Shown one piece after another: positions 6,339 through 47,075 of a stretch of DNA of 64,000 nucleotides. Location of the stretch: the NCBI GenBank assembly GCA_003211275.1, contig QCTE01000004.1, positions 1 through 64,000 of the forward strand, given 5' to 3'. The DNA comes from Synechococcus sp. AG-673-A03. Its GTDB lineage: Bacteria > Cyanobacteriota > Cyanobacteriia > PCC-6307 > Cyanobiaceae. Under the pieces are notes generated by a model that saw only the letters and a program-made list of their open reading frames with translations, did not search any database and was not told the origin of the DNA. The first letter of the stretch is position 1. Each line of letters begins with the position of its first letter. The position numbers and the translations under genes are program-made.

Positions 6339-6809
6339 TCAGCTTCCTGACTGAGACTTCAAAAGCTTTTCGGCTTTGGTCACCTCTTTCTTGTAATCCT
6401 GCGGCAAGTCCTTGCCACAACGGATGCCAACGACTGGTAGCAATTGCATTGCCAGACCGTTTGCGACTTCCTCTGAAGACAAAGCCTGTCCGCTCTTGAC
6501 TCCTGAAATCTTGGAACCATTGACTTCCTTGATGTAACTGACCATCGGAACCATATTGGCCTGCATTGCAGTCAAGAATGGAACCTTGCTTTTCGACAAA
6601 ATGCACATATTGATCGAAGCGATTGAAACCATCCGCTCGATTTCGATCGCTGTGGCCGGGCTTTTCGCTCCACCAGCCCCTTGAGCGAATGCAATTGAAG
6701 CATTGAGAGGAAGCGCTGCGAGGAGCAGAGCAGTTCTGAACGCCTTCGGAAGACTGGGACGGGGAATACGCACTGACAGACTTAAGGGAGCGGCTCCATG
6801 CTGCCTCAT
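6339..6809 (-). CDS. small secreted hypothetical protein
   Basis: 156 residues. A basic N-terminal region is followed by a hydrophobic core (FRTALLLAALPLNASIAFA) and a likely signal-peptidase site AFA-QG near residues 41-44, so the mature protein of about 113 residues is periplasmic. The mature part has two cysteines (MCILS and IRCGKDL) that could form a disulfide, and is mostly helical. A start further in, closer to the signal core, is possible. No family assignment from sequence alone. Confidence 0.65.
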   Translation of the reverse strand: MRQHGAAPLSLSVRIPRPSLPKAFRTALLLAALPLNASIAFAQGAGGAKSPATAIEIERMVSIASINMCILSKSKVPFLTAMQANMVPMVSYIKEVNGSKISGVKSGQALSSEEVANGLAMQLLPVVGIRCGKDLPQDYKKEVTKAEKLLKSQSGS

Positions 6810-45181: not shown

Positions 45182-45532
45182 AGGCCTCGATACAAACTCA
45201 AACAGACATGATGAAGAGGTGGATTGCTGATCAACGTCTTTAATGGAGTAGCAAATGATTACAGCAGCCTGATGATCACTTAGAACTCTATGAAAGATTG
45301 ATGAAAGAAGACTGAATGGTTGGCTCTTTTCCACAACTCGCTGTTGATAACTATGCCAAATTGTGGAAAACAGGCATGACCAAATCATGCCTGACGATGA
45401 GTTTTAAATCATTCATTCAGGGAGCTCAAAGAGTCAAAACCTCGGCAGTCGGGCGAGATCAGAACGATGGCTTGAAAGCCATTAACAGGGGGCTTGCAAT
45501 TGCCGCTGGCTTTCTGGACGACGGAGAAACGC
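45182..45532. other. 350-nt gap between ruvC and the LapA-domain gene
   Basis: AT-richer than its surroundings. The only open frame on the plus strand runs into the LapA gene and has no homology I know. The single structured element is the inverted repeat at 45371-45393, described separately. Confidence 0.5.
45371..45393 (-). terminator. inverted repeat, likely terminator of the LapA-domain gene
   Basis: CAGGCATGA and TCATGCCTG pair exactly around CCAAA. On the minus strand TTTTCC follows at once, giving an intrinsic terminator shape about 140 nt past the leftward LapA-domain gene. Confidence 0.65.
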
Positions 45533-45922
45533 TCAGTCTGAGCTGGACACCTGCACCGCTGGGGCCTCTTCCATTGCTTCTCCTTCTTCAGAACTTGCTG
45601 AAGGGAGCAAGCCCAGCTGCGTTTCAACGGTTGCCCGGTACCGATTCAGATCGGTCTCCAATTCTTGGATGCGCACTTGCTTGGCATCGAAATCACTGGA
45701 CTGATTGAAGCGATCCACGCTGTTCAGCATTCCACTCCACGCAGCAAACAGCCAGGCGGACGTTGCGCCAATCCCCGCAGACAACAGCAGCAATGCTGCA
45801 AGGGGGGTGGTGTACTTCAGCCCCGGCAGCACATGAACGGTGGTTGCAGCTGTGTTTTCCAGCGTAAAAAACACCATGCTCAGGCCGAACACGAAGATCA
45901 GGGTGAAATTGATCTGGCGCAT
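45533..45922 (-). CDS. LapA-domain (DUF1049) membrane protein
   Basis: 129 residues. Two hydrophobic segments, FTLIFVFGLSMVFFTLENTAATTVHVLPG and TPLAALLLLSAGIGATSAWLFAAW, follow the LapA/DUF1049 layout, including the F-x-x-x-N/E-x-x-x-V-x-V turn between them. A helical cytoplasmic tail (residues 68-110) then leads to an acidic Ser/Glu-rich end. In proteobacteria LapA is tied to LPS assembly; a cyanobacterial role is unknown. The minus-strand hairpin downstream probably ends its mRNA. Confidence 0.85.
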   Translation of the reverse strand: MRQINFTLIFVFGLSMVFFTLENTAATTVHVLPGLKYTTPLAALLLLSAGIGATSAWLFAAWSGMLNSVDRFNQSSDFDAKQVRIQELETDLNRYRATVETQLGLLPSASSEEGEAMEEAPAVQVSSSD

Positions 45923-46086
45923 AGTCCGAGTGGCTTGAGGACCAAAAACTACGTAACCAGTTGCGAACTTGGAGCCAAAGACAGTTGAAAGGATGAAGTT
46001 CGTTAAGCAGCGACAAGGTCGTTAACGAAACGAGTAAGCGTCGGGCCATCGCCCTGAAACTCGGGGCACGGATGAGTTGGGTGTAG

Positions 46087-46266
46087 TCATTCCTTGAGCC
46101 GATCCATCACAACTCTCGAAAAAGCTCTCTCCCTTGCAGCCGTGACAATCAGCGCTTTCGAGAGTTGCTTGAGAGACTCCACGTCATTGCACTCATCGAT
46201 CTTGCGACAGGCACGTTCAACGCGAAACTGCTGTTCGATGGTCAGGGGAATCTCAGAAGACAACAC
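46087..46266 (-). CDS. 59-residue helical protein resembling NblA
   Basis: Read on the minus strand from GTG 46266 to TGA at 46087-46089: 59 residues, all helical. It contains LTIEQQFRVERACRKIDE, then KQLSKALIVTAARERAFSRV in a second helix. NblA, the small phycobilisome-degradation adaptor, has an L-T/S-x-E-Q-Q-F first helix, a turn and a second helix of similar length, so a NblA-like hairpin is plausible. The match is to a short pattern only, and the protein may belong to another small helical family. Weak AAAGG upstream. Confidence 0.6.
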   Translation of the reverse strand: MLSSEIPLTIEQQFRVERACRKIDECNDVESLKQLSKALIVTAARERAFSRVVMDRLKE

Positions 46267-46555
46267 GGCAACAAAGCCTTTTGCTCGGGCGAATCTGGCG
46301 AGTTCAACCCCTCAGCCGTGGCAACCGCGCCCTAAGAAAAAACAAAAAAATCGGAGTGGCCTGTTCAATCCAACATCAGAAGACAGGGCTGAGAAGCTTG
46401 GGAAAGACCATCCATGACCAACAGAGACGTTGAGAAGAGGACAACAGCAAGGAGCTGATCACCGAGAGACAAATCGACATTCATCCTTGAAAAACAAGTC
46501 TAATGTTGATCTATGGGACGATTTGCTAGCTTTCGATCAGCCCACCAAAACAGGC

Positions 46556-46777
46556 ATGAAAGCATTCATCCCTATTTACGCAATTTCAATTCTTCTAGGA
46601 ACAAATGCTTTCGCAAACAGTCAATCATCGACTGCAGAAGGTGTTGATAAAGAGATAACGATCAATCGACTGATGTCGAAAGTTCCTCAGGGAGCAAACG
46701 TGACCAACACATCCTGCCAAGAGATTGGAACCGCTGGCTTTAACATCCGTTATCGCTGCACAATCACCTGGCAGTGA
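46556..46777 (+). CDS. small secreted two-cysteine protein
   Basis: 73 residues from ATG 46556. The signal AFIPIYAISILLGTNAFA is cut near residue 20-22. The mature peptide of about 53 residues has two cysteines, in NTSCQEIG and RYRCTITW, 17 residues apart, so one disulfide is likely. A longer frame upstream begins with hydrophilic residues and would bury the signal, so it is rejected. No family recognised. Confidence 0.65.
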   Translation: MKAFIPIYAISILLGTNAFANSQSSTAEGVDKEITINRLMSKVPQGANVTNTSCQEIGTAGFNIRYRCTITWQ

Positions 46778-46810
46778 GTGGATGCCATCAACGAGCGGCC
46801 CCCAGGACCT

Positions 46811-46951
46811 TCACTCAGCTTCCACATCCACAACCGCATCACCTGCATCGAAATCCTCTTCTCTCTTGATCTCTTGCATAGACGACAGGAGCTTTTTCAC
46901 GAGTCGGCTCATGAAATAGACCGTTGCTAACAGCCAGATGATCTTGATCAT
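46811..46951 (-). CDS. 46-residue single-span membrane protein
   Basis: Minus strand, ATG 46951 to TGA 46811-46813. MIKIIWLLATVYFMSRLVKK is a membrane helix with two following lysines, and the tail is acidic (REEDFDAGDAVVDVEAE). TGGAG stands close before the start. The layout suggests an inner-membrane peptide with a cytoplasmic acidic tail. I found no homology by eye; it is convergent with the small secreted protein gene. Confidence 0.65.
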   Translation of the reverse strand: MIKIIWLLATVYFMSRLVKKLLSSMQEIKREEDFDAGDAVVDVEAE

Positions 46952-47075
46952 GACTCCATTATGCCGAAGTCGAAGCGGCCAGGTCAGATCACCGGCAGCA
47001 GCGGGAAGGGGACATCAAAGTCTTCGCCTGGAGCTAAGCCGGTATCAGAAGACTCTTGAGACCAGGGCCTAGCCA

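Follow-up and report, generated by a model that had tools for sequence, protein, structure and literature searches.

A small gene, here called P0001, lies in the 64,000-nucleotide stretch of Synechococcus sp. AG-673-A03 DNA that we analysed (the window), and it encodes a real protein under strong purifying selection. Judged from its sequence, this protein belongs, with several paralogs, to a family of small proteins seen only in the Synechococcus/Prochlorococcus family (Cyanobiaceae), and profile comparisons support a distant relationship by common descent between this family and NblA, the phycobilisome degradation protein that triggers breakdown of the light antenna. Since marine Synechococcus, which contribute heavily to primary production, do without canonical NblA, the way they take their antenna apart under nutrient stress is still ill-defined.

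The P0001 gene, its predicted fold and its surroundings

The initial annotation had claimed a minus-strand gene of 59 residues carrying LTIEQQF, and this reading frame indeed exists (Table 1). It opens with GTG, translates as VLSSEIPLTIEQQFRVERACRKIDECNDVESLKQLSKALIVTAARERAFSRVVMDRLKE and places LTIEQQF at residues 8-14; since an ATG or GTG occurs slightly further upstream in some orthologs, the true start could lie a few codons away. Orthologs were present in 7 of the 31 genomes of the genus, with 90-96% identity in the six besides its own, and a scan of named genomes also found the gene in Synechococcus sp. AG-673-F03 and in an uncultured Synechococcus MAG. Over 52 codons, the differences between orthologs were mostly synonymous (for example, 22 synonymous versus 2 non-synonymous), and 23 of 25 changed bases fell at third positions. 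Because the codon changes are so overwhelmingly synonymous (up to 22 versus 2), the frame is coding and not a chance one.

The AlphaFold2 model of P0001 (mean pLDDT 86, pTM 0.57) placed one helix at residues 10-25 and, after a loop, another at residues 29-58, which agrees with the earlier claim of a two-helix layout whose second helix is about as long as in NblA. The model thus predicts for P0001 the monomer layout of NblA, about 60 amino acids arranged as helix-loop-helix. Foldseek and VIA-align searches with this model, a short hairpin as a query, returned generic helical hairpins only; NblA was not retrieved and nothing was significant.

Upstream of the start lies a block of about 85 bases, a T-rich run followed by CTGAGGGGTTGnACTCGCCAGATT, that was nearly invariant across the seven orthologs; the sequence further upstream was less conserved. 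The core of the block occurs once in the window, at 46292-46315. From its conservation, the block is possibly a promoter or leader that serves a regulator. No Rfam family was found within 45500-47000. A gene for a LapA-domain membrane protein adjoins the P0001 ortholog on its downstream side in every orthologous locus; any functional link between the two neighbours is putative. The upstream gene at 46556-46777, in divergent orientation, encodes a small protein that looks secreted, contains two cysteines and has no Pfam match; it lies beside the NblA-like gene in another locus (L002) too.

Table 1. Positions of P0001 and of the features discussed with it. Window positions are given unless a contig is named.
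Feature	Position	Strand	Context	Basis
P0001, NblA-like small protein gene	46087..46266	(-)	59 aa	ORF, orthologs, purifying selection, model, family homology to NblA
Conserved block, candidate promoter or leader	46267..46352	(-)	upstream of P0001 start	alignment of 7 orthologs
LapA-domain membrane protein gene	45533..45922	(-)	129 aa; same strand, downstream of P0001	Pfam PF06305, 32.6 bits
NtcA-type box	G000:C40:6362-6375		window's own genome; about 62 bases upstream of AW-type paralog 6438-6611	GTTGCAATGACTAC

Kinship of the P0001 family with NblA

The initial annotation had also claimed a resemblance to NblA. Taken as a single sequence, P0001 bears this out marginally: against Pfam NblA (PF04485) it scored 15.1 bits (E 0.033), below the curated cut-off of 25 bits and tied with the unrelated helical model NPHP3_hel, and single-sequence searches of Pfam, NCBIfam, PHROGs and, by phmmer, PDB were marginal or empty. 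Pfam NblA was a weak match for 6 of 30 members of the P0001 family (best E 0.0066), and it was the commonest weak match among Pfam families for these members. With the family profile, a search of PDB reached NblA (1ojh) at E 0.32 only, behind unrelated chains.

At the family level, the resemblance held. When the P0001-family profile was aligned with an NblA profile by hhalign, both profiles being broad, the match extended over the full length (57 columns) with a probability of 94.5% and a P value of 7.4e-8, which multiplied by 24,736 Pfam families amounts to about 0.002. An earlier hhalign run with a narrow NblA set had given 3% and was superseded by the broader alignments. We also searched a pool of 5,774 ORFs, which was built around NblA and the P0001 family on a background of mostly arbitrary reading frames and so offers support, not proof: with a broad NblA HMM, the 42 listed matches after NblA all belonged to the P0001 family (best E 1.2e-5), and with the P0001-family HMM, the listed matches outside the family were NblA. 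The best reversed decoys reached E 0.025 and 0.56, respectively. Over whole genomes, members of the P0001 family ranked first for the NblA profile in most genomes giving a hit. Moreover, bridging sequences from another Cyanobiaceae genus (LSLESNFELERIKRSIDAMDDLELLKHLAKQMAEMMHAQKHV) scored 23.4 bits with Pfam NblA (E 8.3e-5) and about 53 bits with the family profile.

Because of the profile-profile match, the reciprocal HMM hits and the bridging sequence, we accepted the kinship with NblA at the level of the family. These three, together with the complementary distribution described below, disfavour a resemblance by chance or convergence, in which P0001 would be an unrelated two-helix protein with an NblA-looking start. 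We consider such a coincidence very unlikely, even though two-helix hairpins are common, the narrow profile aligned poorly and P0001 matches NPHP3_hel as well as it matches NblA.

The segment kept from NblA in the P0001 family is L-S-L-E-Q-Q-F, together with a hydrophobic spine. Among 30 family rows, F14 was invariant, Q12 was present in 26 and E11 in 17. The segment agrees with an N-terminal motif that has been linked to ClpC binding (PMC4103541). At the other end, the alignment with NblA revealed no WG motif in the C-terminal region of P0001. Bienert et al. 2006 reportedly identified Leu-51 and Lys-53 of Anabaena NblA as C-terminal phycobiliprotein-binding residues. The position of Leu-51 is occupied by Val-53 in P0001, which keeps it hydrophobic; that of Lys-53, where 21 of 22 NblA rows have K or R, is occupied by Asp-55. 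P0001 falls short of the Pfam threshold and lacks the C-terminal residues, and for this reason we did not file it as NblA proper. We placed it as a diverged protein of the NblA superfamily that would probably work as NblA does.

Distribution, branches and NtcA-type boxes

NblA and the P0001 family have complementary distributions. In a class-wide sample of 116 cyanobacterial genomes, 87 had a Pfam NblA match above the cut-off; none of the 31 genomes of P0001's genus did, and 1 of 201 Cyanobiaceae genomes did. The P0001 family occurred in 143 of 201 Cyanobiaceae genomes and was not found in about 106 cyanobacterial genomes outside them. Here 'Cyanobiaceae', and 'Prochlorococcus' for small, low-linker genomes, are labels that we assigned by inference. 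The premise of the initial annotation that marine Synechococcus are without clear NblA homologues therefore stands for canonical NblA; it gives way in that a divergent nblA-like gene had already been noted in WH8102, according to the accessible part of PMC7439483 (citing Nadel 2019).

Two observations concern NblA itself. The lone Cyanobiaceae NblA over the Pfam cut-off (L304, G243:C41:5504-5650) lies on an 8.2-kb contig, possibly phage DNA, in a genome with one phycobilisome linker. In a family outside the Cyanobiaceae (f23), loci L180-L188 encode a divergent NblA type, EKQF...CQQV...DLHLLYLGQQ, near or below the cut-off.

We counted phycobilisome rod linkers via PF00427 and took genomes with three or more as linker-rich. 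The P0001 family was present in 118 of 120 linker-rich Cyanobiaceae genomes versus 25 of 81 with fewer, counts that ignore shared ancestry; the two linker-rich genomes without it are incomplete assemblies. One branch, AW (E <= 1e-9), was found in 106 of the 120 linker-rich genomes versus none of the 81 others, again uncorrected for shared ancestry. Because of this, the association between the family and phycobilisomes may reflect few independent losses. Some genomes with a single phycobilisome linker, or none at all, also contained relatives, and therefore ordinary phycobilisomes cannot be the target of every branch.

Within P0001's genus, relatives of P0001 were found in 29 of the 31 genomes, the nearest at 30-47% identity, and the window's own genome gave 4 hits to the family, which points to several paralogs per genome. 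The branches of the family were AW (pattern MEPIALTLGQKFEIEKFSREID...LLVAWQQQQAASAW), GLEQSFE, NHxLSxEQ, DLY, a Prochlorococcus-type branch related to GLEQSFE, and P0001. In a tree from a short alignment (73 columns), from which we used the starred groups alone since the other forks were weak, P0001 grouped with NHxLSxEQ and EAACR sequences (support 100/96), and the Prochlorococcus-type rows grouped with GLEQSFE (support 99/84). In one low-linker genus (g5), probably of the Prochlorococcus lineage, the NblA-like domain of L156, L162 and L166 continues into a fused C-terminal extension of some 70 residues.

These patterns bear on a reading in which P0001 is an adaptor whose client has nothing to do with phycobilisomes, the family having diversified by client as the Prochlorococcus-type branch suggests. 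The members in genomes with under three linkers, some of which have none, and the C-terminal fusion in some low-linker members would fit such a client. However, all the P0001 orthologs found come from one genus, which has full phycobilisomes, and the Prochlorococcus-type members fall in a different branch from P0001, which makes this reading quite unlikely in our judgement.

NtcA binds GTAN8TAC, later redefined as GTN10AC, and in most activated promoters the site is centred near -41.5 (PMC6166021). Of 54 AW-type Cyanobiaceae genes, 39 had GT[AT]N8TAC in the 130 bases preceding them (1.2 expected from shuffles), among them one in the window's own genome (Table 1), and in 17 the box came with a -10-like hexamer at the canonical distance (0.1 expected). 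The box was absent upstream of P0001 orthologs (0 of 6), was not found upstream of the GLEQSFE and Prochlorococcus-type genes, and preceded 1 of 29 NHxLSxEQ genes; GTN10AC matches around the P0001 gene were at chance level only. Because NtcA-type boxes precede AW genes and not P0001, the AW branch, and not P0001, is likely the nitrogen-controlled NblA equivalent of these cells. With the box missing and the phycobilisome-binding C-terminal region unconserved, P0001 itself is no more than a possible trigger of phycobilisome breakdown.

Proposed role and relation to known systems

Because the N-terminal segment is shared with NblA and the C-terminal part is lacking, we propose, with slightly better than even confidence, that P0001 is a ClpC adaptor of the NblA superfamily with a diverged client end; its ClpC binding, dimer, client and physiological role are drawn by analogy. 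On this reading, a diverged NblA superfamily takes the place of canonical NblA in Cyanobiaceae, and P0001 is one of its lineage-specific paralogs. P0001 would form a dimer as NblA does, with the conserved N-terminal LTIEQQF and the first helix engaging the ClpC chaperone, and its second helix would bind a client for delivery to the Clp protease. With its N-terminal half conserved and its client-binding C-terminus diverged, P0001 could have as its client either a component of marine phycobilisomes (a phycobiliprotein or a linker) or some other protein of photosynthesis. P0001 might act alone or as a heterodimer with its nitrogen-regulated sister paralog.

A heterodimer could also do something other than deliver. 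P0001 could derive from NblA and be a modulator that pairs with the nitrogen-regulated paralog to tune or block it, or else a phycobilisome stabiliser. Several paralogs coexist in one genome, NtcA-type boxes are limited to the sister branch, and the C-terminal client residues are lost in P0001, all of which would suit a modulator, as would NblA1/NblA2 of Synechocystis, which act as a heterodimer, reportedly according to Baier et al. 2014. Nevertheless, the ClpC-linked N-terminal segment is intact in P0001, and we hold a non-delivering role to be unlikely. The ClpC adaptor remains our preferred reading.

A wider scenario is offered tentatively, with appreciably less than even confidence. Marine picocyanobacteria may have turned NblA into paralogous ClpC adaptors, of which an NtcA-controlled branch would degrade phycobilisomes under nitrogen stress. 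The other branches, including P0001, would keep the ClpC-docking end but respond to other signals and serve different clients, and one of these branches would have been retained in low-linker Prochlorococcus-like genomes after phycobilisome loss. An NblA-derived paralog family, with one branch both NtcA-boxed and in near-perfect co-occurrence with phycobilisomes, names knock-out targets with predictions. Because the same family reaches cyanophages, it also bears on viral reshaping of host light harvesting.

The viral relatives are represented by ORF237, the nblA of cyanomyovirus S-SCSM1 (QFG06501.1), which matched the P0001-family HMM at 27.6 bits. ORF237 shares the REID..DIE.L pattern with the family, but its EQQ residues are gone and its C-terminus, which includes KLYFKQQE, is short. 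At least 118 viral loci are related to ORF237, and the identity of its close relatives to P0001 is 17-30%; a search of IMG/VR returned no close relative of P0001 itself. The relatives of ORF237 encoded by these viral loci (L221-L300) have KLYFKQQE in helix 2, reminiscent of KLYEQMM in NblA.

The broad idea of NblA-like genes in marine Synechococcus is not new, because divergent 'picocyanobacterial nblA' genes were already reported by Nadel et al. 2019, as described in the accessible text of PMC7439483 and PMC9602691. Those genes resemble the present family in being divergent NblA homologs of marine Synechococcus, and they cluster with marine cyanomyovirus nblA. By contrast, the accessible text on them mentions neither a family of several branches nor the NtcA split nor the P0001 branch. 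Judged against this limited literature, the set of paralogs, their division by NtcA-type boxes and the P0001 copy may be new.

The closest known system is NblA (PF04485; structures 1ojh, 3cs5, 2q8v and 2qdo). P0001 differs from it in scoring below the Pfam cut-off, in having one additional loop residue and the family-specific E17, R21 and D28, in having Asp for Lys-53, and in being without the C-terminal KHxWG and without an NtcA-type box at its gene. P0001 and NblA have in common a length of about 60 amino acids, an L-S/T-x-E-Q-Q-F start, a helix-loop-helix architecture (predicted for P0001), a hydrophobic pattern along the length and their occurrence in phycobilisome-bearing cyanobacteria.
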